From contig NZ_JAATJC010000001.1 in the NCBI RefSeq assembly GCF_011927725.1, forward strand, positions 1,929,001 to 1,993,000: a stretch of 64,000 bases of DNA, given 5' to 3'. This stretch comes from Sphingomonas kaistensis (GTDB lineage: Bacteria > Pseudomonadota > Alphaproteobacteria > Sphingomonadales > Sphingomonadaceae). The notes beneath the pieces are model-generated. The model was not told where the DNA came from, did no database searches, and was given only the letters and a program-made list of their open reading frames with translations. Position numbers and translations under genes: made by a program. Positions 40,659-58,999 of the stretch are shown one piece after another; the stretch's first letter is position 1, and each line of letters begins with the position of its first letter.

Positions 40659-41078
40659 CTACACCCCGAAGGTCACGTGGCCATTCGCGTCGATCGGCCA
40701 GGCCGGATTGAAGGCGATCTCCCATGCGTGGCCGTCGGGGTCCTCGACATAGCCGCGGAAGCCGCCGTGGGGCGGGGCATCGGCGGGGCGCAGGAGGTGG
40801 CCGCCGGCAGCGACGAGTCGGGCGATGACCTGCCGGACTTCTTCCTCGCTCCCGACATTGTGGCCGAGGGCGAAGGCGCCCGGGCTCGCAAGTCCCTTGC
40901 GATTGCTGTCTTCCTCCAGCCCCGCCTTGCTCCAGGTGGCGAGGACGAAGCCATTCATCTGGTAAAAGGCGATCTCGTCATTCTCAAACACCGGGGTCCA
41001 GCCGAAGCCGTCACGGTAAAAGGCCTTCGACCGATCGAGATCGTCGGTGGCCAGCGTCAGGACCGACATCGACTGCAT
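40659..41078 (-). CDS. VOC-family (glyoxalase-fold) protein
   Basis: 139 residues from ATG 41078, whose A is the last base of the paaZ stop (TGATG). Two beta-alpha-beta-beta-beta units; typical VTLATDDLDRSKAFYRDGFGW-type start and VEDPDGHAWEIAFNP end. Possible roles include glyoxalase-like, dioxygenase-like or resistance proteins; metal ligands are not certain. It ends the paaG-paaZ transcript. Confidence 0.82.
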   Translation of the reverse strand: MQSMSVLTLATDDLDRSKAFYRDGFGWTPVFENDEIAFYQMNGFVLATWSKAGLEEDSNRKGLASPGAFALGHNVGSEEEVRQVIARLVAAGGHLLRPADAPPHGGFRGYVEDPDGHAWEIAFNPAWPIDANGHVTFGV

Positions 41079-43102
41079 CAAGGGACGTTCTCCGTCAGCA
41101 AGTCGTAGGTCGCGACCAGTTCATCCTTTTGGTTGAAGATCTCGACCGCCCAGCGGACAACGCCGGTTTCCTCGCTCTTCAGCGACTTGGAACGGACGGT
41201 GAGCTCGACCCGCATCGAATCGCCCGGATAGAGCGGGGTCAGAAAGCGGAGATTTTCCAGACCGGTGTTGGCGAGGACGGGGCCCGGATCGGGATCGACG
41301 AACAGGCCGGCGGCGAAGCTCAGGATCAGGTAGCCGTGGGCGACCCGGCCCTCGAAGATGGGCGAGGCCTTGGCCGCTTCCTCGTCCATGTGGGCGTAGA
41401 AGGTGTCGCCGGTGAAATGGGCGAAATGCTCGATATCCTCGACGCTTACCGTCCGGCTGCCAGTCTTGAGCGTATCGCCGATATGGAGCTCGCTCATCCG
41501 TTTGCGGAAGGGATGGGTTTGGACGACGTGCTTGGGACCGCCGGGACTATATTGCGAGGTGATCGCCGCGATCATTTCGGGCGAGCCCTGGAGCGCGGTG
41601 CGCTGCATGTAGTGGGTGACGCCGCGGATGCCGCCCATCTCTTCGCCGCCGCCGGCCCGGCCCGGCCCGCCGTGGACGAGGACAGGCAAGGGGCTGCCAT
41701 GCCCGGTCGAGAAGGCGGCGTTGGTGCGGTCGATCACCAGCATCCGGCCGTGAAACGCCCCGGCGCCGAGGACGAAGTCGCGCGCCACATCGCCGGAATG
41801 GGTGAACAGCGACAGCGCGAGGCTGCCCTTGCCGCGGTTGGCGAGCCGGACCGCGTCGGCAAGGTCCGTGTAGGGCATCAGGGTCGCGACCGGGCCGAAT
41901 GGCTCGACGTCGTGCGCCGCCTCGCAGGCCCAAGGATCGTCGGCGCACAGCAGCACGGGTGACATGAAGGCGCCCCCGTCGGGGCCGGTTGCGGCGCCGG
42001 GATCGCCCCATCCGACGCGCGCGCCGTCAGCCGTGATGGCGGCGACCGCTTCCCGCACACTGTCGCGCTGGGCCCGGCTGACGAGCGCACCCATGCCGGT
42101 CGCCTTGTCACGCGGATCGCCCACCGCGAGCGCCGAGAGCCTTGCGGCGAGCGCCTCCTCCACCGCGCCGAGGAACGCCGCAGGAACCATCGCGCGGCGG
42201 ATCGCGGTGCACTTCTGCCCGGCCTTGACCGTCATCTCGTTGACCACCTCGGCCACGAACAATTCGAACTCGGGGGTGCCGGGGGCGGCATCGGGGCCGA
42301 GGACCGAGGCGTTGAGGCTGTCCTGCTCGGCGATGAATTTGACGCTCTCGCGCTGGATGACGGGATGGGTCCTGAGCTTGAGCGCGGTCTGGGCCGAGCC
42401 GGTGAAGCTGACCACGTCCTGCCCGGTCAGGTGATCGAACAGGTCGCCGACCCCGCCCACCACCAATTGCACCGCGCCGTCCGGCAGCACGCCGGCTTCG
42501 ATCATCACCCGGAATGCCGCCTCGGCCAGCCAGGCGGTGGCGCTGGCGGGCTTCACGACCGCTGGAACGCCCGCGAGCAGCGCCGGGGCAAGCTTTTCGA
42601 GCATTCCCCAGACGGGAAAATTGAACGCGTTGATGTGGACCGCGACGCCCTGCAGCGACGTATAGATGTGCTGGCCCTGGAACAAAGGCGACTTGCTTAG
42701 CGGTTCGAGCTGGCCGTCGAGCAGCACGTGCGCATCGGGCAGCTCGCGCCGGCCCTTGCTGGAAAAGGACAGCAGCGTGCCCGCGCCGCCTTCGATGTCG
42801 ATCCAGCCATCCTTGCGCGTCGCACCGGTGGCGTAGTTGAGCTCGTACAATTCTTCCTTGCGGGCGAGGATGGCGAGGCCGAGCGCCTTCAGCATCCGGG
42901 CGCGCTGGTGAAAGGTCAGCGCCCGAAGCGCCGGGCCGCCGACCTCGCGGGCGAAGCGCGCCATGCCACCGAAATCGATCCCGCCCGAGCCGGTAAGCGC
43001 CACCGGCGACCCGTCGAGGGCGCTTGGAAGCTCGGTCAGGCTGCCGGCGTCGCCCGGCGTCCATTCACCGCGGGCGTAGTTCAAAAGCTGCTGGGTTTTC
43101 AT
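41078..43102 (-). CDS. paaZ: bifunctional PaaZ: oxepin-CoA hydrolase / 3-oxo-5,6-dehydrosuberyl-CoA semialdehyde dehydrogenase
   Basis: 674 residues from ATG 43102. Aldehyde dehydrogenase half: NFPVWGMLEKLAPALLAG, Glu259 (FIAEQDSLN) and nucleophile Cys298 (AGQKCTAI), nearly the E. coli PaaZ positions. C-terminal MaoC/hot-dog half (after ~530) with FTGDTFYAHMD. The enzyme opens the oxepin ring of phenylacetyl-CoA catabolism. No paaABCDE or paaK nearby, so the rest of the pathway is elsewhere. Confidence 0.93.
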   Translation of the reverse strand: MKTQQLLNYARGEWTPGDAGSLTELPSALDGSPVALTGSGGIDFGGMARFAREVGGPALRALTFHQRARMLKALGLAILARKEELYELNYATGATRKDGWIDIEGGAGTLLSFSSKGRRELPDAHVLLDGQLEPLSKSPLFQGQHIYTSLQGVAVHINAFNFPVWGMLEKLAPALLAGVPAVVKPASATAWLAEAAFRVMIEAGVLPDGAVQLVVGGVGDLFDHLTGQDVVSFTGSAQTALKLRTHPVIQRESVKFIAEQDSLNASVLGPDAAPGTPEFELFVAEVVNEMTVKAGQKCTAIRRAMVPAAFLGAVEEALAARLSALAVGDPRDKATGMGALVSRAQRDSVREAVAAITADGARVGWGDPGAATGPDGGAFMSPVLLCADDPWACEAAHDVEPFGPVATLMPYTDLADAVRLANRGKGSLALSLFTHSGDVARDFVLGAGAFHGRMLVIDRTNAAFSTGHGSPLPVLVHGGPGRAGGGEEMGGIRGVTHYMQRTALQGSPEMIAAITSQYSPGGPKHVVQTHPFRKRMSELHIGDTLKTGSRTVSVEDIEHFAHFTGDTFYAHMDEEAAKASPIFEGRVAHGYLILSFAAGLFVDPDPGPVLANTGLENLRFLTPLYPGDSMRVELTVRSKSLKSEETGVVRWAVEIFNQKDELVATYDLLTENVP

Positions 43103-43152: not shown

Positions 43153-43935
43153 CTAGCGCCCCCGGTAGACCGCCGGACGCTTTTCGAGGAACGCCGCAAC
43201 GCCTTCGCGATAATCTTCGGTGAAGCCGAGGCGCCGCATTTCGTCGCGCTGGAGATCAAGCTCCGCATCGAGCGTGCGCTCGCCCGACGTGCGGATCAGC
43301 CGCTTGATCGCGGCGAGACCGAGCGGCGGAAGACCGGCCAGCCTGGTTGCCAGCGCATCGACCTGGCCGTCGAGTTCGTCGTCTTCGACGCACTTCCAGA
43401 TCAGGCCCCAATCGGCGGCCTTTTCCGCCGGCAGAGGCTCGGCGGTCAGTGCGAGGCCGAGCGCGCGGGCCTGGCCGACCAGCCGGGGCAGGTGCCAGCT
43501 GCCGCCGCTGTCGGGGATGAGGCCGAGATTGGCGAAGCTCTGGATGAACTTGGCGGAGCGGCCCGCAACCACCAGGTCGCAGGCAAGCGCGATGTTCGCG
43601 CCCGCACCGGCCGCGACGCCCTGAACCCGGGCGATGACCGGCTGATCGAGGCTGGCGAGTCGGCGAACCAGGGGATTCCAGCTCCCTTCGACCGTCTCGC
43701 CAAGGTCGACCGCCTGGCCGGGGGCGACCGCGCGGTCGTTGAGGTCCTGCCCCGCGCAGAAACCGCGCCCGGCGCCGGTCAGGACGATGACCCGCGCGCT
43801 TTCCGCCGCGCGGTCCAGCGCGTCGCGCAGTTCGGCGTGCATCGCGGCCGTGAAACTGTTGAGGCGATCGGGACGGTTCAGGGTGATCCGCGCGACGCCA
43901 TCCTTCTCGGCATAGAGGATGGCCGGTTCGCTCAC
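43153..43935 (-). CDS. paaG: enoyl-CoA hydratase/isomerase, PaaG-like
   Basis: 260 residues from GTG 43935 (GTGA overlap with the PqqD-like gene). Crotonase fold: oxyanion-hole GRGFCAGQDL and GAGANIALACDLVVA, LGLIPDSGGSW. The FCAGQDL form and length agree with PaaG (1,2-epoxyphenylacetyl-CoA isomerase), and the paaZ neighbour supports it. 50 nt separate it from paaZ. Confidence 0.88.
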   Translation of the reverse strand: MSEPAILYAEKDGVARITLNRPDRLNSFTAAMHAELRDALDRAAESARVIVLTGAGRGFCAGQDLNDRAVAPGQAVDLGETVEGSWNPLVRRLASLDQPVIARVQGVAAGAGANIALACDLVVAGRSAKFIQSFANLGLIPDSGGSWHLPRLVGQARALGLALTAEPLPAEKAADWGLIWKCVEDDELDGQVDALATRLAGLPPLGLAAIKRLIRTSGERTLDAELDLQRDEMRRLGFTEDYREGVAAFLEKRPAVYRGR

Positions 43936-44201
43936 CGGACCTCCTCCACCAGCCCTTCGCTCGTCATCTGCTCCAGCAGCGCGACGACCTCGGCCCGGCA
44001 TTGGGCGTCGTCCACCTCATATTCCGAGGTCAGCCGGGCCACGAGGTCGTCGATGCCGCGCGGCTCTTCCAGCAGGCGCCAGACCGTCGCCGTGACTTCC
44101 TCCATGCCATAGGCGAACCCCCGGTCGGCCTGCAGCGCGACCACGTCGTCGCCGACGTCGGTCGACATGGTGGCGGCGGTACGACGATAAGTGGCGCTCA
44201 T
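43932..44201 (-). CDS. PqqD-like small protein (RiPP-recognition-element fold)
   Basis: 89 residues. A winged-helix PqqD/RRE pattern: three N-terminal strands (YRRTAATMSTDVGDDVVAL and GFAYGMEEVTATVW), then helices LLEEPRGIDDLVARL, EYEVDDAQCRAEVVALL, EQMTSEGLVEE. PqqD and RREs bind the leader of ribosomally made peptides for modification. It is coupled on both sides by 4-nt overlaps to the cysteine-cluster gene and paaG. No radical SAM enzyme or precursor is seen nearby. PqqD-like identity is from pattern only. Confidence 0.7.
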   Translation of the reverse strand: MSATYRRTAATMSTDVGDDVVALQADRGFAYGMEEVTATVWRLLEEPRGIDDLVARLTSEYEVDDAQCRAEVVALLEQMTSEGLVEEVR

Positions 44202-44695
44202 GACGCGGACTCCGAACTGAGAATGGGACCTTCACTCCGGTTGCGGAAATGACGGTCGAGATAATGGTCGAGTGCAAAGGATCGCATCAGCACCTCGGCC
44301 GACCCGCTTCCCGCGCGGCGCTCGGTCCGGCTGTCGGGAAACGTCGCCCCGGGGGCGAGCGCCGCCTGCAGTTCCCCGGCGAGCCGCCGCGCCTCCGCCA
44401 CCAGCGGCAACGCGGAGTCGAGATGCCGACCGCCGCGCACTTCCTCGAGCAGGCGGCAGGCGTAAGCGGCGCACACCCTAGGGCGCGAACCATAGATGGT
44501 GCAGGTCGCTCCCTCGAGCTTCGGGCAGGGCAGGGCGAACAAGGTCGGCGCCGTTCCTTCGAGAACGGGAAGGCCGACGGCGATGGCGGGTTCGACCTCG
44601 TCCGGTTCGAGCTTGGCACCGTCGTGCAACGCGCCGGTGCAGCACAGGCCGCAGGACGTGCAGAGTTGGCTCTCCACGTTCATCGGCTCGCTCAT
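44198..44695 (-). CDS. YkgJ-type cysteine-cluster protein
   Basis: 165 residues from ATG 44695 (ATGA overlap with the exporter stop). Cys12, Cys15, Cys18 and Cys19 (CTSCGLCC) and later Cys residues (LPCPKL, ATCTIYGSRPRVC, AYAC) form the YkgJ/CxxCxxCC family, presumed to bind Fe-S or zinc. Function unknown. Placed between the ABC exporter and the PqqD-like gene. Confidence 0.82.
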   Translation of the reverse strand: MSEPMNVESQLCTSCGLCCTGALHDGAKLEPDEVEPAIAVGLPVLEGTAPTLFALPCPKLEGATCTIYGSRPRVCAAYACRLLEEVRGGRHLDSALPLVAEARRLAGELQAALAPGATFPDSRTERRAGSGSAEVLMRSFALDHYLDRHFRNRSEGPILSSESAS

Positions 44696-46482
44696 GCGGC
44701 GACGTCGAACTGCAGGCGGGCGAGACGCGCATAGAGGCCGCCGCGGGCCGTCAGCGTGGCGTGGGTGCCTTCTTCGACGATCCGCCCCTCGTCCATGACG
44801 ATGATCCGGTCGGCCGCACGGACGGTGGCCAGGCGGTGGGCGATGACCACGGTGGTGCGGCTTTCCATCAGGCGTTCGAGCGCTTCCTGAACGGCCGCCT
44901 CGCTTTCGGCGTCGAGCGCGCTGGTCGCCTCGTCGAGCAGCAGCAGCGGCGCATCGCGCAGCAGCGCGCGGGCGATGGCAATCCGCTGCCGCTGGCCGCC
45001 CGACAAGCGCGCGCCACTTTCGCCAAGGAAGGTGTCGTAGCCGTCCGGCAGCGCGGACAGGAACTGATGCGCATTGGCGGCGCGGGCAGCGGCCTCGATC
45101 TCGGCTTCGCTCGCGTCCCACCGACCGTAGCGGAGGTTGTCGCGGGCGCTGGCGGCGAAGATCACCGTTTCCTGCGGCACGAGCGCGATGTGGCGGCGAA
45201 GGTCGGCAGGATCGAGGTCGCGCACATCGACACCGTCGAACGACACGGCGCCGGCCTGGGGGTCGTAGAAGCGCAGCGCGAGCTGGAAGAGGGTCGACTT
45301 GCCCGCGCCCGAGGGTCCCACCACCGCGACGGTCTCGCCCGGCGCGACGCTGATGGTCAGCCCATCCAGCGCCTTGGTGTCGGGCCTGGTCGGGTAGCGG
45401 AAGTCGACGCCATCGAACGCGAGCGCTCCGGTCGCCGGTTCGGGCAGCGCCTTGGTGACGGCGGGAGCGCTGATCTCGGCCTTGGCTGCGATCAGTTCGG
45501 CAAGGCGCCCGGCGGCACCCGATCCGCGCAGCAGGTCGCCATAGACTTCGCTCAAGGCGGCGAAAGCGCCGCCGACCAGTACGCCGGTGAAGACAAAGGC
45601 GGCGATCTCGCCCCCGGTCATGCGGCCGGCGGCAACGTCGATCGCACCTTCCCAGATGACCATCACGATGGCGCCGAACATCAGGGCGATCAGCACCACG
45701 GTCATGATGGCGCGCAGGCGCATGCGGGTGCGCGCGGTGGTGAAGGCGTTTTCGACCACCTCGGCGAAGCGCGCTTCTTCGCGGCGCTCCTGCCCGAAAG
45801 CCTGAACGATCTTCATCGCGCCCAGGACCTCGCTGACATTGGCCCCGACGTCGGCGATCCGGTCCTGGCTGGCGCGCGATAGTGCGCGGACCTTGCGGCC
45901 GAACAGGATGATCGGACCGAACAGCAGGGGGATGGCGATCAGCAGCAGCCCGGCGAGCTTGGGGCTGAGCGCGAACAGGTAGATGATCCCGCCGATCCCG
46001 GTGACGAGATTGCGCAGCGCAAAGGACACGGAAGTACCGACCACCTGTTCTAGCACCGCGGTATCGGCGGTGAGGCGGGAGGCGATCTCGCTCGGGCGGT
46101 TTTCCTCGAAGAAGCGCGGGGGCAGGGTGAGGAGATTGCGCTGCACCTGACGGCGCAGGTCGGCGACCGTGCGCTCGCCCAGCCACGAGACGAAGTAGAA
46201 GCGGAAGCCGGTCGCGAGCGCCAGCACGATCACGATCATCAGCAGGTATTGGAAAGCCTGGCTGACCGCGTCGCCGCTCACCGACCCGCCGGCGAACCCA
46301 CGGTCGATGACCTGCTTGAAGCCATAGGGGATTGCCAGCGTCGCGGCCGAACTCACGCCGAGGAAGAATAGCGCCGCGAGGATCCGTGCCGGATATTTGC
46401 CGGCAGCCTTGAAGACGAGCTTCAGGTTGCCGATGCTCCGGCCGGTTTTGATGTTTTCCTTGTCGTCGGACCCGCTCGCCAT
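44692..46482 (-). CDS. MsbA-like ABC exporter (fused membrane and ATPase domains)
   Basis: 596 residues from ATG 46482; an upstream in-frame ATG at 46518 lacks support. Six-helix exporter domain, then ATPase with Walker A GPSGAGKST, signature ARLSGGQRQRIA, LLLLDEATSALD and the H-loop IAHRLATVR. It heads the chain exporter, cysteine-cluster, PqqD-like, paaG. Substrate unknown: lipid, drug or peptide export are all possible; the context suggests peptide export as one option. Confidence 0.85.
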   Translation of the reverse strand: MASGSDDKENIKTGRSIGNLKLVFKAAGKYPARILAALFFLGVSSAATLAIPYGFKQVIDRGFAGGSVSGDAVSQAFQYLLMIVIVLALATGFRFYFVSWLGERTVADLRRQVQRNLLTLPPRFFEENRPSEIASRLTADTAVLEQVVGTSVSFALRNLVTGIGGIIYLFALSPKLAGLLLIAIPLLFGPIILFGRKVRALSRASQDRIADVGANVSEVLGAMKIVQAFGQERREEARFAEVVENAFTTARTRMRLRAIMTVVLIALMFGAIVMVIWEGAIDVAAGRMTGGEIAAFVFTGVLVGGAFAALSEVYGDLLRGSGAAGRLAELIAAKAEISAPAVTKALPEPATGALAFDGVDFRYPTRPDTKALDGLTISVAPGETVAVVGPSGAGKSTLFQLALRFYDPQAGAVSFDGVDVRDLDPADLRRHIALVPQETVIFAASARDNLRYGRWDASEAEIEAAARAANAHQFLSALPDGYDTFLGESGARLSGGQRQRIAIARALLRDAPLLLLDEATSALDAESEAAVQEALERLMESRTTVVIAHRLATVRAADRIIVMDEGRIVEEGTHATLTARGGLYARLARLQFDVAA

Positions 46483-46610
46483 GAGGGCAGCGGTTAGCAG
46501 GGGCAACGGCGGACACAAAGCCCCGGCGTGGGACAGCCCTCGCCTATCTTGCCAGCGGACCCTTTCGGTTCCACACCGGTTGGTGGGCGAAAGATCATAA
46601 GTGAGAGTGG

Positions 46611-47831
46611 ATGCTTTACGACGCGTATGAAGTGCAGCGCAGCTGGCTGGCCGGTGCAGGACAGCTTGCGAACCTCTCCTCCAATTGGCTGAGCAACAGT
46701 GCCAACCCGTTGAGCTATCACGGGATGAGCGGGATCGTGTCGGCCAGCCTCGACGTCTTCGCCCATGCCGCCGCGACGCGCGGAAAGCCGGCTTTCGGGC
46801 TCGACACCGTCACCATCGACGGCAAGTCGCTGCCGGTCCGCGAAGAGATCGTCGACCGGATGCCGTTCGGGCAGCTGAAGCACTTCGTTCGCGAAGGCGC
46901 CCCCGAAGGACAGCCGCGGCTGCTGATCGTTGCCCCCATGTCCGGCCACTATGCGACGCTGCTTCGCGGCACGGTGGAGCGGCTGTTGCCCGGCCATGAG
47001 GTCTACATCACCGACTGGCGCGACGCGCGGATGGTGCCGCTCAGTGAGGGCACGTTCGACCTCGACGATTATGTCGACACGCTGATTGGCTGGCTCGGCA
47101 AGATTGGCCCGGGCGCGCACATGCTGGCCGTGTGCCAGCCGAGCGTCCCGGCCTATGCCGCGACTGCGCTGATGAATGCCGACAACCATCCGGCCACGCC
47201 GCGCACCCTGACGATGATGGGTGGCCCGGTCGACACCCGCGAAGCGCCGACCGCGGTCAACACGCTCGCGACCGAGCGTCCGCATGCCTGGTTCCAGCAG
47301 AACGTCGTGTGTACCGTTCCGGCCATGTATCCGGGCGGTGGCCGCAAGGTCTATCCGGGCTTCCTGCAGCTCGCCGGCTTCATGACCATGAACCTCGGCA
47401 GCCACCTCGTCAGCCATTGGGAGATGTTCAAGCATCTGGTCGACGGCGACGAGGAAGGGGCCGATGCGACCCGCGACTTCTACGACGAATATCGCTCGGT
47501 CTGCGACATGACCGCCGAATTCTACCTCCAGACGGTCGACGTGGTATTCCAGCGCCACCTGCTGCCCAAGGGCGAGATGATGCACCGCGGCCAGCGGGTC
47601 GACCCGGCGGCCATCACCCGGACCGCGCTACTGGCGATCGAAGGCGAGCGCGACGATATCTCGGGCGTGGGGCAGACCAAGGCGGCGCTGAAGCTCGCCA
47701 CCAAGCTGCCCGCCGCGAACAAGAAATATCACCTCGCGGAAGGCGCGGGCCATTATGGCATCTTCAACGGCCGCAAATGGCGCGAGAAGATCGCGCCGGT
47801 GGTCGAGCGGTTCATCGCCGCCCACGACTGA
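46611..47831 (+). CDS. phaZ: intracellular polyhydroxyalkanoate depolymerase
   Basis: 406 residues. Starts MLYDAYEVQRSW as in PhaZ1-type intracellular depolymerases. The lipase-like box has Cys175 (VCQPS) as nucleophile, as in Ralstonia PhaZ1, plus the C-terminal GAGHYGIFNGRKW with the catalytic His. It degrades stored PHB in the cytoplasm. Divergent from the exporter; a bidirectional terminator follows. Confidence 0.95.
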   Translation: MLYDAYEVQRSWLAGAGQLANLSSNWLSNSANPLSYHGMSGIVSASLDVFAHAAATRGKPAFGLDTVTIDGKSLPVREEIVDRMPFGQLKHFVREGAPEGQPRLLIVAPMSGHYATLLRGTVERLLPGHEVYITDWRDARMVPLSEGTFDLDDYVDTLIGWLGKIGPGAHMLAVCQPSVPAYAATALMNADNHPATPRTLTMMGGPVDTREAPTAVNTLATERPHAWFQQNVVCTVPAMYPGGGRKVYPGFLQLAGFMTMNLGSHLVSHWEMFKHLVDGDEEGADATRDFYDEYRSVCDMTAEFYLQTVDVVFQRHLLPKGEMMHRGQRVDPAAITRTALLAIEGERDDISGVGQTKAALKLATKLPAANKKYHLAEGAGHYGIFNGRKWREKIAPVVERFIAAHD

Positions 47832-51527: not shown

Positions 51528-52223
51528 ATGCGTTCAACGTTGAAATTGCCCGTCTTTGCGGCCGGCTCTCTTGCCCTGGCGCTCGGCGCCTGCGCCGACA
51601 AGCCGGGTGGCCCAATCCCGTACAACGTGACGCTTGCGCCGCCGGACCAGCCGCGCGCCCTCAGCCTGGAAGAGAATTATCGCATCGCGCCGCTCGACAC
51701 GGTGACGGTGAACGTGTTCCGCCAGAAGGACCTGTCGGGCGATTACGAGGTCGATCTGACCGGCCGGATCAGCATGCCGCTGATCGGATCGATCGAAGCA
51801 GTGGACCTTACCACCGCCCAGCTCGACCAGAAGGTCACCGCCGCCTACGCCAAGAAATATCTGGTCAATCCGGACGTCGCGGTCGGGGTCAAGTCGTCGA
51901 CCCGGCGCGCTGTCACCGTCGATGGCGCGGTGAAGTCCAGCGGTTCCTACCCGATCAACGGCCCCCTGACCCTGCTGCAGGCGATCGCCCTTTCCGGCGG
52001 AGCGTCGGAAGACGCCAATTTGCGCCGGGTGGCGGTGTTCCGGACCGTGTCGGGCCAGCGTCAGGCGGCCGCCTTCGATCTCCAGCAGATCCGCCGTGGA
52101 CAGGCGGTCGATCCGCCCATCTATGCGGGCGATATCGTGGTGGTCGACGGGTCGGGCGTGAAGGACACGCAGAAGCGGATCCTCAATAACATCCCGATCC
52201 TCTCCATTTTCCGGCCGTTCTGA
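51528..52223 (+). CDS. outer-membrane polysaccharide export lipoprotein (Wza/GumB-like)
   Basis: 231 residues from ATG 51528. Signal peptide with lipobox LGAC (Cys22); then YRIAPLDTVTVNVFRQKDLSG, the Poly_export domain, and a SLBB repeat (VTVDGAVKSSGSYPINGPLTL). It forms the outer-membrane export channel for the polymer. 37 nt before wzc. A promoter-like TTGCTT ... TTTAAG lies in the 64-nt gap before it, so this may be an internal transcription start. Confidence 0.93.
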   Translation: MRSTLKLPVFAAGSLALALGACADKPGGPIPYNVTLAPPDQPRALSLEENYRIAPLDTVTVNVFRQKDLSGDYEVDLTGRISMPLIGSIEAVDLTTAQLDQKVTAAYAKKYLVNPDVAVGVKSSTRRAVTVDGAVKSSGSYPINGPLTLLQAIALSGGASEDANLRRVAVFRTVSGQRQAAAFDLQQIRRGQAVDPPIYAGDIVVVDGSGVKDTQKRILNNIPILSIFRPF

Positions 52224-52260
52224 CCCACCGGGGTCGGGCTGCCGCAAAGGAACAGCAATC

Positions 52261-54468
52261 TTGAATCGTGATCTCGCCTTCAGTCCCAACGGGCGCCTTC
52301 CGGCGGCTCCTGGCGACCTTCCGCCGGGCGCCGCGGCGCCGGTCAACCGCGCCCGCACCGCCGTGCATCACAACCAGCTGGACCTGGCGAGCCTGCTTCG
52401 CATCGTCCGCGAATGGCGCTGGCTGATCCTTGCCGCGATGGTGCTCGGGCTGGCCGGCGGGATCATCCTCACCATGCTGACCACGCCGCTCTACCGGGCG
52501 GTGGCGACGCTGGAGGTCAATCCGCCGCAGGTGCAGGTGCTCGACAAGGACGATTCGCAGAGCCAGTCTTTCCAGAGCTGGGACTTCATCGCGACCCAGG
52601 TCGGCCTGCTGCAAAGCCGCGCCGTGGCCGAGCGCACCGCGCAGGACCTGAACCTCGCGGCCAATCCGGCCGTCGCCGGAACCGAGGGTTCGCTGCAGGA
52701 CCGACTGGCCCGCGCCACCAGCGTGGTGGCCGGCGGCCTCAACGTCACCATGCCCGAAGAAGGCACGCTGATCCGCTACACCTACACCTCGACCGATCCG
52801 CAGCTTGCTGCGACCATTGCCAATGGCGTTGCCGACAGTTTCATCAACGCCGGCCTCCAGCGCCGGTTTGAAAGCTCGGCCTATGCTCGCCAGTTCCTCG
52901 AGCGGCAGATCACCAAGACCCGCGGCGACCTCGAGCGGAGCGAGCAGTCGCTTGCCCGCTATGCGCAGGCGGAGGGGATCATCACGCTCAGCGGCGGCGG
53001 GCAGGGCAGTTCGGGTTCGCCAGAGGCCGGCAACTCGTTGCAGGGGGACAGCCTGGCCGCAATCAACGCCGCTTTGGCGCAAGCGACTGCACGCCGGGTA
53101 GCGGCCGAGGGTGCCTATCGCGCCTCCGCGGCATCCGGTCCGGGCAGCGCGGTCACGGCCTCGACCCAGGCCCTCCGCGCCAGCCGCGCCCAGGTCGAGG
53201 CGGAATATAGCGAAAAGCGCGCGTCGCTTCAGCCCGATCACCCCGAGATGATCAGCCTGCGCGAACGGATCGCCGAACTGAACCAGCAGATTGCCCGCGA
53301 AGGCGCGCAGGCCAGTGCCGGCGTCAACAACACGCTGGCGGCCGAATATCGCGGCGCGGCAGCCGCCGAGCGGGCACTTCAGGCGCGGGTCAATTCCTTG
53401 AAGGGCCAGGTCCTCGACCTGCGCGGCCGCAGCGTCCGCTACGGGATCCTGCAGCGCGAGGTCGATACCAACCGCAGCCTCTATGATGCGCTGCTTGGCC
53501 GCTACAAGGAAATCGGCGTCGCCGGCGGCATCGGCACCTCGCCGATCTCGATCGTCGATCGGGCCGAGCCGGCAGGCTCGCCGTTCAAGCCGAACCTCCC
53601 CAAGAACCTGCTGGCCGGCCTTGCGCTTGGCCTGATCGGCGGGCTTGGGGCAGCGGTTGGCCTCGATCTCCTGCGCGACACCATCCGCACCCGTGAGGAC
53701 ATGCGGTCCAAGCTTGGGCTCGCCTGCATCGGCCAGATCCCCAAGCGCCAGACCAAGGGCGATTTCGTCGAGGACCTCAAGGATCCGGGTTCATTGGTGT
53801 CCGAAGCCTATAGCGCCACTGCTGCGGCGCTTCGCTTTACCACCGAACATGGCGCGCCGCGGGTGATGATGGTCACGTCGACCTCGCCGGCCGAAGGCAA
53901 GTCGTCGTCGGCGCTTGCGCTGGCGCAGAACTTCGCCCGCCGCGGGGTGAACGTGCTGCTGATCGATGCCGATCTTCGCAAGCCGGCCTTCCGTGCCGCC
54001 AATGACGAGATCGGGCTGACCAAGCTCCTTACCAACGAGGAGGAACTGCTCGGCCACGTCGCGCCGACCCAGTTCGACAATCTGTCGCTGCTGCCGTGCG
54101 GAACACTGCCGCCCAACCCGGCCGACCTTCTCGCCACCGCGCGGTTCGGAATGATCATCGAGGAAGCGCTGCAGCACTTCCAGATGGTGCTGGTCGATTC
54201 ACCGCCGGTGATGGGCCTCGCCGATGCGCCGCTGATCGCCCACACCTGCCGCAATGTGCTGTTCGTGGTCGAAAGCGCCCGCACCCGCACCCGGCAGGCG
54301 GCCGAGGCGCTCAACAACCTCGAGGCTTCCGGCGCCCACCTGCTGGGCGGTCTGCTGACCAAGGCCAGCGAGGCCAATGGCAACTACAGCTACTATAATT
54401 ATCGCTACGGCGAGCTTGCCGACAAGCGGGAGCGGATCGCCCTTATTCCCCATCATCAGGAAGGGTGA
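52261..54468 (+). CDS. polysaccharide chain-length and tyrosine kinase protein (Wzc/GumC-like)
   Basis: 735 residues from TTG 52261 (AAAGGA upstream). Wzz domain with two membrane helices (~53-75; ~445-470) and a long coiled-coil. C-terminal BY-kinase: Walker A SPAEGKSSS (~543), Walker A' VLLIDADLRKP (~564), Walker B VLVDSPPV (~642) and a tyrosine cluster YSYYNYRYGEL (~707-717) for autophosphorylation. With the Wza-like channel it exports the polymer. Confidence 0.94.
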   Translation: MNRDLAFSPNGRLPAAPGDLPPGAAAPVNRARTAVHHNQLDLASLLRIVREWRWLILAAMVLGLAGGIILTMLTTPLYRAVATLEVNPPQVQVLDKDDSQSQSFQSWDFIATQVGLLQSRAVAERTAQDLNLAANPAVAGTEGSLQDRLARATSVVAGGLNVTMPEEGTLIRYTYTSTDPQLAATIANGVADSFINAGLQRRFESSAYARQFLERQITKTRGDLERSEQSLARYAQAEGIITLSGGGQGSSGSPEAGNSLQGDSLAAINAALAQATARRVAAEGAYRASAASGPGSAVTASTQALRASRAQVEAEYSEKRASLQPDHPEMISLRERIAELNQQIAREGAQASAGVNNTLAAEYRGAAAAERALQARVNSLKGQVLDLRGRSVRYGILQREVDTNRSLYDALLGRYKEIGVAGGIGTSPISIVDRAEPAGSPFKPNLPKNLLAGLALGLIGGLGAAVGLDLLRDTIRTREDMRSKLGLACIGQIPKRQTKGDFVEDLKDPGSLVSEAYSATAAALRFTTEHGAPRVMMVTSTSPAEGKSSSALALAQNFARRGVNVLLIDADLRKPAFRAANDEIGLTKLLTNEEELLGHVAPTQFDNLSLLPCGTLPPNPADLLATARFGMIIEEALQHFQMVLVDSPPVMGLADAPLIAHTCRNVLFVVESARTRTRQAAEALNNLEASGAHLLGGLLTKASEANGNYSYYNYRYGELADKRERIALIPHHQEG

Positions 54469-55655
54469 TGCGGGGAGAGGGGGCCGCGTCGGCTCGGCGA
54501 TCATGTTTGGAATGGCTGGGGCTCGCAGCGGTCCTGCTGCTTGCGGTGCAGGCCGGCCGTTCGGCGTTCGTCGCCGCCGAAGGTGAGCGACGTCCGGCTG
54601 CGGCGCACGCCGTGTGGCCCTCGCATCCCGTGCCGCAAGCGACCCTCGCCCTTGCCAGCATCGGTGCCGCGGCCCGCGAAGGCCGGGCGCCGGACGCGCA
54701 GGCTTTGGAGCAGATCCGCAGCGTCGGGCGGGCCGATCCACTTGCCGTAGATCCGCTGCTGGTGACGGCGACCGCGCGTCTTGCTGCCGGCGACCGGCAG
54801 GAGGGCGAAAAGCTGTTGAAGGCCGCGCTCCACCGCGAGCCGCGCTCGTCCGCCGCCCACTTCCTGTTGGCCGACCTCTACGTCCGCGAGCAGCGGGTCG
54901 GCGACGCGCTGGTCCATGTCGGGGTGCTCGGCCGCCGGATCCGCGGCGGCGGTGCCGAGCCGTTCGCGGCGGCGCTTGCGATCTACCTGCGCGATCCTTC
55001 GAAGATCGCCGAGGTGCGCCCGATGCTGCAAGGCAATGCGGCGCTTCGCAAGTCGGTCATGATCAACCTCTCGCAAGACCCCTCCGCGGCCACCTCGCTG
55101 CGCCTGCTGACCGGGCGCGGGGACAGCGGGGAGGAGTGGTTCCGGAACGCCTTCGAGCGGCAACTCGCGGGTGGCAACGTCGGCGGGGCACGCGCCTTGC
55201 TCGCCGCCGCGCGGGTTCGCGGCGGCGGCACGGCGCTCACGCCCTGGTCCGCCGGCGACGAGGCCGGGCCGCTGTCCTGGCGCCTGCCCGCGACGTCGGA
55301 CGGGGTGGTCGAGCCGGTCTCGGGCGGTCCGCTGCGGCTGGTCTTCTATGGCCGGGCCGATGCTTCGCTTGCCGACCACCTGCTATTGCTGCCGGCTGGC
55401 CGCTATCGCTTCGAGGCCCAGTTCGCCGGGACGCCCCCGCCCGGCACGTTCGAATGGCGCGTGACCTGCCTGCAGGGCGCGCGCCCGCTTGCCACCTGGC
55501 CGGTCTCCGCGCCCGCGAGCGCACAACTTCTGGACGTTCCCGCCGATTGCCCGGCGCAGCGCGTGGCATTGTGGGGACGTCTCGGCGAATTCCCGCGCAC
55601 GACCTCCGCAGAACTTGTCCGGGTCGCCCTCAATCCGGTGATGGCCACGCCATGA
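54468..55655 (+). CDS. TPR-like membrane protein of the EPS operon
   Basis: About 395 residues from ATG 54468, whose A is the last base of the Wzc stop; a GTG at 54465 is possible. One N-terminal helix (WLGLAAVLLLAVQAG), then TPR-like helical repeats (LLVTATARLAAGDRQEGEKLLKAAL, SAAHFLLADLYVREQRVGDAL), then a beta-rich C-terminus with two cysteines. Not recognised as a known family. Its place between wzc and wzy suggests an accessory of polymerisation or export. Confidence 0.7.
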   Translation: MRGEGAASARRSCLEWLGLAAVLLLAVQAGRSAFVAAEGERRPAAAHAVWPSHPVPQATLALASIGAAAREGRAPDAQALEQIRSVGRADPLAVDPLLVTATARLAAGDRQEGEKLLKAALHREPRSSAAHFLLADLYVREQRVGDALVHVGVLGRRIRGGGAEPFAAALAIYLRDPSKIAEVRPMLQGNAALRKSVMINLSQDPSAATSLRLLTGRGDSGEEWFRNAFERQLAGGNVGGARALLAAARVRGGGTALTPWSAGDEAGPLSWRLPATSDGVVEPVSGGPLRLVFYGRADASLADHLLLLPAGRYRFEAQFAGTPPPGTFEWRVTCLQGARPLATWPVSAPASAQLLDVPADCPAQRVALWGRLGEFPRTTSAELVRVALNPVMATP

Positions 55656-57028
55656 GCATGACCGTTCGCCACCTGGCGGTGCCGCTGTTCCTGATCGCCT
55701 GCCTGCTGCTTGGCGGCAGTCCGCAGGGGATCTGGCGTAACCTGATCCTGCAGGTCGGCGGCCTGTCGCTGATCGCCTGGGCCCTGCTGTCGAGCCGGCG
55801 GAGCCATCCGACCAGCGCCGGTCGCCTCCTGCTGTGGCTGGGCGGATTATGGTTCGCCCTGGTCCTTCTCCAGCTCATACCGCTTCCCCCGCAATGGTGG
55901 AGCGTGCTGCCGGGCCGCGCCCCGGCGGTGGAAGGCTTCGTGCTGCGCGGCGAGCCCTTGCCGTGGCTTCCGCTGTCGCTCGCTCCGGCCCAGACGTTGT
56001 CGACCCTCCCGTTGCTTGCGGTCCCCCTCGGCGTGATCGCGGCGGTGGTCGTGCTCGGTGCCTATCGTTCGCGCTGGGCAGTGGCGGCGCTGGTCAGCGG
56101 GACCTGTGTCTCGGTCCTGCTCGGCGCGGTCCAGCTCAGCCAGGGCGGGCCCTACCTGTTCGACAATTACAATACCGAGCGGGCAACCGGGCTGTTCGCC
56201 AACAGCAACCACCAGGCGACCCTCCTGCTCGCCACCCTGCCGTTCCTCGGCGCGCTGATCGGCCAGCAGCAGCAGGAGGGCCGCAAGCGCCAGTCCGCGG
56301 CGCTTGGCCGGATCGTGATCGCGCTGGGCGCGGTGGCGGTGATCCTCCTTGGCATCATCCTCAATGGGTCGATGGCCGGGCTTGGCCTGCTGCTGCCGGT
56401 GGGGCTCGCCAGCCTTGCGGTCGCCTTGCCCAACACCGGCAAGGTCCCGCGGCTGCTCGCCGGGGTCGCGCTGCTGCTGATGCTGGCGGCGATGGTCGGG
56501 ATCGGGGTCCTGACGGACGCCGGAAGCAATGCGACCTCGCTTGCCACCCGGTCCGACATCTACCGCATCACGCTTGCCGCGATCGGCGATACCTTCCCGG
56601 CCGGGACCGGGCTGGGCAGCTTCCAGACTTATTATCGCCTGTACGAAAATCCGGCGCTGGTGGATTCCTTCTTCATCAACCACGCCCACAGCGATCCGCT
56701 GGAATGGATCCTCGAAACCGGCCTGCTCGGGGCGCTTCTGCTCGGCGCGCTTTTGCTGTGGTGGGGGACCCGTGCGCTTCGCCTGTGGCGGGCGCCCAAG
56801 CCCGACCTCACGGCGCTGGCGGCGACCATCGCGTCGGGCGCGATCCTGGCCCACAGCCTGGTTGACTATCCGCTCCGCGATGCGGCGATCCAGGCGGTGT
56901 TTGCCCTGTCGCTCGCCTTCATGGCGGAGCCGCGCAGCCATTCGAGCGAAAGCCGGTCGCGCTCTCGTGGGCAGGACCGTGCGCCCCGCCATCTGACGCT
57001 GGACGACGATGGCCCTCTCAGCGGGTAA
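55652..57028 (+). CDS. O-antigen ligase / Wzy-family polymerase
   Basis: 458 residues from ATG 55652, overlapping the previous stop. About ten helices and a large periplasmic loop with NYNTERATGLFANSNHQATLL and ARSDIYRITL-type segments; HAHSDPLEWILETGLLG is the Wzy_C hallmark. It ligates or polymerises repeat units. It ends the operon; its last 11 nt overlap the convergent nucleotidyltransferase gene. Confidence 0.9.
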   Translation: MSMTVRHLAVPLFLIACLLLGGSPQGIWRNLILQVGGLSLIAWALLSSRRSHPTSAGRLLLWLGGLWFALVLLQLIPLPPQWWSVLPGRAPAVEGFVLRGEPLPWLPLSLAPAQTLSTLPLLAVPLGVIAAVVVLGAYRSRWAVAALVSGTCVSVLLGAVQLSQGGPYLFDNYNTERATGLFANSNHQATLLLATLPFLGALIGQQQQEGRKRQSAALGRIVIALGAVAVILLGIILNGSMAGLGLLLPVGLASLAVALPNTGKVPRLLAGVALLLMLAAMVGIGVLTDAGSNATSLATRSDIYRITLAAIGDTFPAGTGLGSFQTYYRLYENPALVDSFFINHAHSDPLEWILETGLLGALLLGALLLWWGTRALRLWRAPKPDLTALAATIASGAILAHSLVDYPLRDAAIQAVFALSLAFMAEPRSHSSESRSRSRGQDRAPRHLTLDDDGPLSG

Positions 57029-58055
57029 GCAGGAGCCCGAACTTGCGGGTGAGTTCGCTGAGGAAGTAATGCGATCCCGGGACCATCAGCAGTTGCGAGC
57101 GATGGATCGGGATTGTGCCGAAGCGCTGTGCGGTCGGCTCCCCGGGATTGGTGATCGCCCCCAGCGCGATCCGAACCAGTCGCAGCGTTGCGCCATCGCC
57201 CTCGAGCCCGTCGGGAAGCCTGGTCCCGAGCAGCCGATTGGCGAGGATCAGGCCGGCCGCCACCGTCCGACCGGCGCCGAGGCGCGGAGCCTGGTCGGCG
57301 ATCGCCGCAAGCTGTTCGGGCGGGGTCCGCGCTGCCAGGGCGGCGAAGTCGGCCAGCCACTTGAGGCGGAACCAGGCGCTGGAAGCGCCATGCACCGCCA
57401 GATAGGGCAGCAGCAGCCGCTCGGGCAGGGTCGGCAGCGTGAGCCTGCCGCGCACTTCCACCATTCGCGGGGTGACCGTCGCCACCGCGCCCGGCAGCAG
57501 CGACGGATGGTCGCCGAGGCGGCTGTGCAGGTCGAGCAGGATTCCATCGTCGCTGCGCCACTGGCTTTCCTTGCGGGCGCGATGCCAGTCGACCGGATCG
57601 ACCGAGGGGTCGGGCACCTGCTGGACGTAGCCCAGCGCATCGAGCAGCCGGGCCGCCTTGCCAATGGCGCCTGGCGGCACCAGCAGGTCGATGTCGAGCT
57701 GCTGCTTGATCAGGGGATCGCCCCACGCCAGCGCGCCGAGCGTCTGGCCCTTGACGAAAAGATGCGGCAGCGAGGCGCTGGCGAAGGCGTGATGAACGCG
57801 CCCGCTCTCCACCACCATCGCGAAACCGTCCGCCGCGATCCGCCGCGCCGCAGCGCCGATCGGCTGGGCACCCAGCGGCACGATACCTGCCCGGGTCAGC
57901 GTTTTCCAAACCAGCCCTTCGACACGGTGACGCCTGGCGAGCGTCGCCAGCCGGGCGCCGTCCGCAGCGGCCAGCCGGGGTCCGAGCAGTGCAAGGTCGG
58001 CATCGCTCAGCCCGGGGCGGCAGCAATCGGCAAGAAGGGCGAGCATCGGCTCCAT
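57018..58055 (-). CDS. NTP_transf_5-family nucleotidyltransferase
   Basis: 345 residues from ATG 58055 (AAGGA upstream). The NT-fold acidic motif QLDIDLLVPP (~120) and the HARKESQWRSDDG-type segment are those of the uncharacterised nucleotidyltransferase family Pfam14907, seen beside lasso peptide, exosortase and HprK-like genes. Divergent from the HprK-like gene by 47 nt, so the two probably share regulation. Substrate unknown. Confidence 0.8.
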   Translation of the reverse strand: MEPMLALLADCCRPGLSDADLALLGPRLAAADGARLATLARRHRVEGLVWKTLTRAGIVPLGAQPIGAAARRIAADGFAMVVESGRVHHAFASASLPHLFVKGQTLGALAWGDPLIKQQLDIDLLVPPGAIGKAARLLDALGYVQQVPDPSVDPVDWHRARKESQWRSDDGILLDLHSRLGDHPSLLPGAVATVTPRMVEVRGRLTLPTLPERLLLPYLAVHGASSAWFRLKWLADFAALAARTPPEQLAAIADQAPRLGAGRTVAAGLILANRLLGTRLPDGLEGDGATLRLVRIALGAITNPGEPTAQRFGTIPIHRSQLLMVPGSHYFLSELTRKFGLLLTR

Positions 58056-58102: not shown

Positions 58103-58999
58103 ATGGTAAGTCTCGTTCGCTTGTTCGGACTGACCCTGTCCAGCGAACTGCCGCTACCGGGGCTGGTCGCCGCGCCCGAGGGCTCGGCGGTCGACGTGAC
58201 CATCTGCCGCGGCTCGGTCGGAGCCGAGGCCGACCTCGTCATCCCCGAGGCCGGCTCGTTCGTGGTCCGCGCCGGGCGGGAGATCATCGTCGATGCGCTG
58301 CCCGGCATTCCCGAGCGCAACGTGCGCCTGTTCCTGCTTGGCAGCGCAATGGGGCTGCTGCTGCATCAGCGCGGGCTGTTCCCGCTTCACGCCAATGCCG
58401 TGGCATTAGACGGCCGGGCGATTGCGGTCGCCGGTGCGACGGGGGCGGGCAAGTCGACCCTTGCCGCCTGGTTCTCGCGGCAGGGGCTCGGGCTGGTCGG
58501 GGACGACGTGATCGCCCTCAAGCCGACCGGCGAAGGAATGGTCGCGCTGCCCGGGCCGCCGCGGGTTCGCCTGTGGCGCCAGTCGCTCGACACCTTCGGG
58601 CTGGGCAGCGAGGGCCTTGAGCCTAGCTACGTCGATCCCGGTTTCGACAAGTGGGACCTGCCGGTCCCGCTCAGCGACCATGAAGCGGACGAATTGCCGC
58701 TGGGGTGCATCTATGTCCTGAGCGACGGGCCGGGCATCGCGATCCACCGCCTGGGCGGCGCGGCCGCGGCCGGAGCCTTGTTCGACCACACTTATCGCGG
58801 TGCTTATGTCGAACAGGTCGGCGGCGCGGCGGGGCATTGGCAGGCCGTGGCGCGCATCGCGGCCTCGGTCCCGGTCTTCAGCCTCGAACGCCCGCGCGAC
58901 CTCAGCCAGCTTGATGGGCTGGGCCACGCCCTGCTTGATCACGCGCGGGCTGCAACCGCTCGAACAGACGACGCGGATCGGTCAGCAGGACAAGGGTAA
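58103..58999 (+). CDS. HPr-kinase-like protein
   Basis: 298 residues. Starts RLFGLTLSSELPLPGL as in HprK-related kinases; Walker A AGATGAGKSTLAA (~111-119) and the preceding LFPLHANAVAL, then LVGDDVIAL, the Hpr kinase C motif. No Hpr or PTS gene is near. In other genomes such kinases sit with PqqD-like proteins or lasso genes and may phosphorylate peptides or sugars. The last 98 nt overlap antiparallel the MFS gene. Confidence 0.8.
   Translation: MVSLVRLFGLTLSSELPLPGLVAAPEGSAVDVTICRGSVGAEADLVIPEAGSFVVRAGREIIVDALPGIPERNVRLFLLGSAMGLLLHQRGLFPLHANAVALDGRAIAVAGATGAGKSTLAAWFSRQGLGLVGDDVIALKPTGEGMVALPGPPRVRLWRQSLDTFGLGSEGLEPSYVDPGFDKWDLPVPLSDHEADELPLGCIYVLSDGPGIAIHRLGGAAAAGALFDHTYRGAYVEQVGGAAGHWQAVARIAASVPVFSLERPRDLSQLDGLGHALLDHARAATARTDDADRSAGQG

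Follow-up and report, generated by a model that had tools for sequence, protein, structure and literature searches.

A PqqD-like protein beside an exporter in Sphingomonas kaistensis as the probable B1 of a dispersed phosphorylated-lasso-type pathway, with a YkgJ-type protein as its possible partner

Why does a small PqqD-like protein stand between an exporter and a gene of phenylacetate metabolism? The question is raised by four genes in a 64,000-nucleotide stretch of Sphingomonas kaistensis (GCF_011927725.1, contig NZ_JAATJC010000001.1, positions 1,929,001 to 1,993,000). This whole stretch is called the window here, and coordinates refer to it unless the contig is named.

46482-44692, minus strand: MsbA-related ABC exporter (TIGR02204 MsbA_rel, 806.8 bits, cut-off 780.4)
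44695-44198, minus strand: YkgJ-type CxxCxxCC protein, 165 amino acids (PF03692, 31.9 bits, cut-off 23)
44201-43932, minus strand: PqqD-like protein, a lasso B1-type RiPP recognition element (RRE), 89 amino acids (PF05402, 58.1 bits, cut-off 23.4)
43935-43153, minus strand: PaaG isomerase, the coupled downstream neighbour (TIGR02280 PaaG, 376.4 bits, cut-off 345.15)

A sequence-only reading of this DNA had described the genes as one string with a 4-nt overlap at each junction, and the coordinates confirm it: 44692-44695 for exporter and YkgJ, 44198-44201 for YkgJ and PqqD, 43932-43935 for PqqD and PaaG. PaaG has a GTG start and falls just beyond the range given in that reading. In the genome, a single contig of 2.85 Mb, PF05402 has one match at E<=1.

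Our answer, held with considerable confidence, is that the PqqD-like protein is B1, the RRE, of a phosphorylated-lasso-type pathway for a ribosomally synthesized and post-translationally modified peptide (RiPP), with genes dispersed over the chromosome. The PqqD/RRE fold proposed earlier is borne out by the PF05402 profile and by sequence and fold matches in the PDB, and the comparison gives the fold of lasso B1 proteins. The PqqD of PQQ synthesis was rejected as a candidate (TIGR03859, 16.2 bits against a cut-off of 46). The suggested role in peptide maturation also stands, on co-occurring kinase and precursors, on clustering with lasso genes in relatives and on the precursor pattern. The families, the fold, the gene distribution, the precursor sequence pattern, the coupling and the YkgJ-PqqD fusions described below are established in this analysis.

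Which proteins accompany the PqqD relatives? In other genomes of the genus they are Asn-synthetase-like, transglutaminase-like, HprK-like kinase and NTP_transf_5 proteins. The genus sample comprised 71 genomes, 43 with a PqqD match and 28 without; a first set held 61 genomes, 22 of them with PqqD. Profiles for the precursor (A), B1, B2, the cyclase-like protein (C), the kinase (K) and the NTP_transf_5 protein (N) were seeded from loci already assigned by hand, and gene calls outside the window came from a codon-usage script, with some genes missed or mis-framed. The order exporter, YkgJ (not always present), PqqD, PaaG is not peculiar to one strain: it recurs in 7 of the 43 PqqD-match genomes, called paa-type below.

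The kinase follows PqqD closely. In a single-sequence search (E<=1e-10) it matched 23 of 61 genomes, including all 22 with PqqD. At profile scores of at least 90 bits it was found in 45 of 71, namely 43/43 with a PqqD match and 2/28 others (Fisher 2e-17, like all co-occurrence counts here without correction for shared ancestry). The two others are G067, in which the kinase is one open stretch and B1 was detected by a wider profile only, and G006, in which the kinase is in pieces. A weaker kinase match (below about 61 bits), present in most genomes, was taken as the short ordinary HPr kinase and left uncounted. B2 exceeds its Pfam cut-off in 21/22 PqqD genomes against 6/39 others of the first set, the single miss being G026, a genome 79% complete. 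Among 37 genomes not of the paa type, the kinase lies within 8 kb of B1 in 34, C in 33 (including two weak matches, G004 and G072), B2 in 24, the precursor in 23 and N in 23. In the seven paa-type genomes none of the five lies that near, the distance counts covering fetched stretches only, so that absences are not firm. Partial dispersal is also seen in G004, G064, G021, G008 and G009. In G014 and G035 (L113, L114) the B2-type match lies in a longer frame, of 271 and 239 amino acids, probably a fused B protein from a classical lasso cluster.

Where, then, are the partners in S. kaistensis itself? The sequence-only reading had overlooked the kinase and NTP_transf_5 genes within its own window, where they adjoin polysaccharide export and assembly genes; the others lie farther along the contig.

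58103-58999, plus strand: HprK-like kinase (K) of the phosphorylated-lasso type, divergent from N (found by tblastn with relatives' proteins)
57018-58055, minus strand: NTP_transf_5 nucleotidyltransferase-like protein (N) (PF14907, 124.2 bits, cut-off 31.2; own profile 449 bits)
51528-57028, plus strand: polysaccharide export/assembly genes (Poly_export, Wzz/Wzc-like, TPR, Wzy_C; Pfam matches)
contig 2039375: precursor (A), about 66 kb from PqqD (profile search of fetched stretches)
contig 2039616-2041289: cyclase-like gene (C), about 66 kb from PqqD (profile search of fetched stretches)
contig 2393021-2393413: B2, about 420 kb from PqqD (profile search of fetched stretches)

B2 scores 69.1 bits with NF033537, the NCBIfam lasso B2 model (cut-off 33), with Cys and His present by eye, and C matches PF00733 at 76 bits, over the cut-off, and has the SGGRDS motif. 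Across the kinase family H96, G114, G116, K117, S118, D134 and D135 are invariant and G111 is nearly so; H, GxxGxGKS and DD stand at the same spacing as in BsfK, as far as PMC10368454 presents that enzyme in its available part. An HPr-rel-A system was rejected (TIGR04352, 31.9 bits against a cut-off of 200). Beside B2, an integrase-like open reading frame (ORF), recognized by eye, lies 225 bp away (L082:5715-7435); in G016 B2 has the same neighbours on the other side and the integrase-like ORF is absent.

Is there a substrate for such enzymes? The sequence-only reading had noted no precursor nearby. This holds for the 64-kb window, which contains no precursor ORF of the motif type, but not for the chromosome, on which a precursor lies about 66 kb from PqqD. 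A lasso-type pathway requires no radical SAM enzyme. The precursor is a short ORF that immediately precedes the cyclase-like gene, both in the window genome (L081) and in relatives; in S. kaistensis it has 40 residues, MKKVWNKPELRRLVAGAAE before the proposed cut and SRLKAGRTDATPNGNGGLNFS after it. In G020 and G031 (L086, L087, L090, L091) there are two separate precursor-cyclase pairs each, with one B1. With a seed alignment of 22 sequences from 19 genomes, precursors were found at E<=1e-5 in 37/71 genomes, 36/43 with a PqqD match and 1/28 without (G067); when the 19 seed genomes are excluded, the proportions are 17/24 and 1/28.

Forty precursors were read from the fetched stretches, 27 with an AG.AE junction and 13 of another type. 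In the AG.AE type an acidic residue occurs at core position 8 or 9 in 26/27, against a shuffle mean of 3.9, and none of 20000 shuffles reached 26, the positions having been picked after inspection; in the other type it occurs at core 7 or 8 in 13/13. A measure that does not depend on where the cut is placed, the distance from the leader Trp to this acidic residue, is 21-23 in 39/40. A C-terminal Ser ends 38/40 precursors (27/27 AG.AE, 11/13 other). In the window genome the acidic residue is D9 of the core, or D8 if the cut falls one residue later; such a later cut would give rings of 7-8.

Several observations weigh against a phosphorylated-lasso-type pathway. The cyclase-like protein is far under the strict NCBIfam lasso cyclase cut-off (NF033535, 53.8 bits against 525). 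The lasso genes are unclustered in the paa-type clade and lie in four places in the window genome, and B2 was not found in the stretches fetched for G070. Seven divergent PqqD genomes are without a precursor at E<=1e-5, and the G028 precursor (L089:5648-5764) is without an acidic core residue, its leader motif and C-terminal Ser being kept. The AG.AE leaders do not have the usual Thr at position -2 but Ala or Glu, and only G017 and G034 have Thr there among the 40; Thr(-2) is not universal, since lasso leaders with Ile or Val at -2 are found in the available part of PMC10368454. YkgJ is lacking in four of the seven clade genomes and in most cassettes, and is thus inessential. Finally, no product is known for the pathway.

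How might the parts work together? From the patterns above we infer the catalytic steps, the cleavage site and the topology as follows. B1 would bind the W..P.[LVI] leader of the 40-residue precursor and present it to the kinase, to B2 and probably to YkgJ. The HprK-like kinase would phosphorylate the C-terminal Ser, and the NTP_transf_5 protein may decorate that phosphate. B2 would cut the leader off at AG.AE or about one residue from it, and the Asn-synthetase-like C would link the new N-terminus to Asp, giving a ring of some 8-9 residues. YkgJ, which is coupled to B1 or fused with it, would reach the precursor through the RRE for an accessory, probably metal-dependent step. In the accessible portion of PMC9266682 the target of the paeninodin kinase is the C-terminal Ser, and PsmN acts on this Ser once phosphorylated; K, N and the conserved Ser here fit this chemistry. 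The B1 of the bsf system both accelerates phosphorylation and helps B2 (PMC10368454, same portion as above), and a fusion between B1 and a different modifying protein is plausible on that ground.

The pathway thus proposed resembles the phosphorylated, paeninodin-type lasso systems, including pseudomycoidin (PMC9266682) and bsf (PMC10368454), on the features that the available parts of these papers describe: split B1 and B2, an Asn-synthetase-like C, HprK-like kinase residues, an NTP transferase, an aromatic-xxPx(L) leader, a C-terminal Ser as in paeninodin, and an acidic ring residue. PMC10368454 in that part also lists such a system from Sphingobium. On the same comparison, ours is unlike them in its dispersed genes (in the paa-type clade), its YkgJ partner and its polysaccharide-locus context; its leader motif has Trp in place of Tyr, and its AG.AE junction has Ala or Glu at -2 in place of Thr (or Ile/Val).

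The same machinery could instead make a linear or otherwise processed phosphopeptide, not a threaded lasso. We regard this as somewhat unlikely. The RRE, HprK-like kinase, NTP transferase and MsbA-like pump match the LPP family, as far as the available text of PMC13381572 describes it, and the cores here are short, rich in Gly, Asn and Ser, and poor in bulky residues. Yet the genes here include a lasso B2 and one for an Asn-synthetase-like protein whose loop reads SGGRDS, and the position of the acidic residue fits the ring register. By the same text only about one third of LPP loci are linked to C and B2, and C-like and B2 genes occur here; the LPP family uses an archaeal-type signal peptidase (SpI), for which no search was made here.

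There is the question of what YkgJ contributes to the phosphorylated-lasso-type pathway. A single-sequence search of the 61 genomes found it in the window genome, G016, G036, G007 and, marginally, G058. A genome-wide search of the 71 with a subfamily profile gave seven matches over 100 bits: the window genome, G016, G070, G036, G084, G062 and G076 (the profile was built from five of these, among them G070 and G084, whose copies had first come to notice at PqqD loci that were fetched). The earlier idea of a functional role for the cysteine-cluster protein has gained support. It lies within 6 kb of PqqD in six of the seven genomes: coupled to PqqD at the paa site in the window genome, G016 and G070, three of the seven paa-type genomes; joined to PqqD by an identical 4-nt overlap in G036, in a cassette with all other parts and not at paa; 1 kb away in G084; and first in the G062 operon Y-N-C-K-methyltransferase-B1-B2 (L185:1974-8593). 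P0113, from a protein database, is a fusion with YkgJ first and PqqD second, and a search with it added six fusions (P0159, P0160, P0162, P0163, P0164, P0165) of 253-287 amino acids at 89-96% coverage; the PF03692 label is on four of the seven, P0160 is without the first cysteines and maybe truncated, and P0162-P0165 seem closely related. The methyltransferase of the G062 operon is PrmA/PRMT-like and is possibly a further tailoring enzyme.

Could YkgJ stand beside PqqD by chance or by hitch-hiking? The absences from clade and cassettes noted above speak for it, as do the G084 copy, which is on the other strand with one gene between, and the homologues of G076 and G007, which lie away from any PqqD (that of G007 is a weaker match in a genome without a PqqD match; a match in G029 is marginal). 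The proximity in six of seven genomes and the seven fusions make it improbable. We propose tentatively, as a possibility, that YkgJ proteins of this subfamily represent a new type of metalloenzyme for RiPP tailoring, which a lasso RRE recruits and with which it is sometimes fused, in a phospho-lasso pathway from separate loci that is maybe tied to the polysaccharide locus. PF03692 is, in Pfam, only a putative zinc- or iron-chelating domain. Across 45 rows Cys 15, 18, 19, 57, 65 and 75 are invariant and Cys 12 and 80 nearly so. The predicted structure model is confident; no solved relative was found by sequence at E<=1, and fold searches gave no clear one. The entire YkgJ chemistry is likewise what we infer, and its nearest lead is an analogy: the cysteine cluster of the FliB lysine methyltransferase, which binds [4Fe-4S] and is likened to PF03692 by its authors in the available part of PMC8598068. 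FliB has CX4CX3CC against CX2CX2CC in YkgJ; the likeness may guide thought on function and is not a claim of homology. In an exploratory comparison, Lys occurs in the first four core positions in 5/5 precursors with YkgJ near B1 against 5/23 others, a window picked after inspection, with five precursors representing about three lineages and that of G084 read by eye.

Is the relocated PqqD then a functionless relic of a decayed lasso cluster? The scattered genes would suit this, and decay apparently does occur in the genus: G006 (L116:6479-7564) has both kinase and B2 split in two, one B2 piece containing a stop, and no PqqD match. PqqD also evolves faster than its neighbours (dN/dS among three species: PqqD 0.23-0.26, YkgJ 0.24, PaaG 0.07-0.11, exporter 0.03-0.13). 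By these ratios PqqD and YkgJ are both constrained, less tightly than exporter and PaaG, which argues against a relic, as do the open PqqD frame coupled to PaaG in 7/7 paa-type genomes and, in the window genome, A, B2, C, K and N that are each one open stretch, with kinase, C and B2 motifs intact. We consider a relic very unlikely.

What of the exporter and PaaG, which gave the locus its appearance? The sequence-only reading had suggested that an export system could have taken over the paa genes; neither this nor a dedicated exporter found support, and both ideas were given up. The MsbA-related exporter is present in 58/61 genomes irrespective of PqqD, and PaaG in 48/61, located elsewhere in genomes without PqqD at the paa site; among genomes with both on one contig, the two adjoin each other only where PqqD is at paa (G070 included). 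In a tree of 87 columns with many forks unresolved, the paa-type B1s group together (support 96/93), adjacent to cassette-type B1s. The best reading of the exporter-PqqD-PaaG arrangement is a single rearrangement that the seven genomes inherited. Among these the PqqD/PaaG overlap is 4 nt in six and 1 nt in G020, and exporter and PqqD are 129 nt apart in G020 and 17 nt apart in G019. A PaaZ-like aldehyde dehydrogenase and MaoC fusion (41078-43102) lies downstream of PaaG in all seven, with a gene of about 170 amino acids between them in four. The exporter adjoins a PHB depolymerase-like gene in 9/10 exporter loci fetched outside the clade (at the G009 locus the script called another frame at that position), and in the window the two form a divergent pair (44692-47831). 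G009 has its B2 gene about 2 kb from this exporter (L103:8260-12376), another case of a lasso gene close to the pump. Export of the peptide by an MsbA-type pump, that is, by a possibly co-opted exporter, is possible but unproven. A stand-alone module of exporter, YkgJ, PqqD and PaaG, serving Fe-S-linked export or maturation of a peptide in a way not yet described and tied to phenylacetate genes, would account for the 4-nt coupling and the order kept in seven genomes, but it is highly improbable given the distribution of exporter and PaaG and the kinase, N, precursor and cyclase-like genes carried elsewhere by 7/7 paa-type genomes.

The kind of pathway to which this B1 belongs is already known. 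To the extent that the searches reach, three features are new: the dispersal, an AG.AE junction without Thr and, most of all, the unit of YkgJ and RRE. Genome mining based on clusters expects adjacent lasso genes, so a pathway dispersed in this way would probably be missed. Here a lone RRE in an unrelated operon pointed to a precursor, a protease, a cyclase-like gene and a kinase, and the YkgJ-RRE fusions give a concrete functional lead for PF03692 as a partner in peptide maturation.

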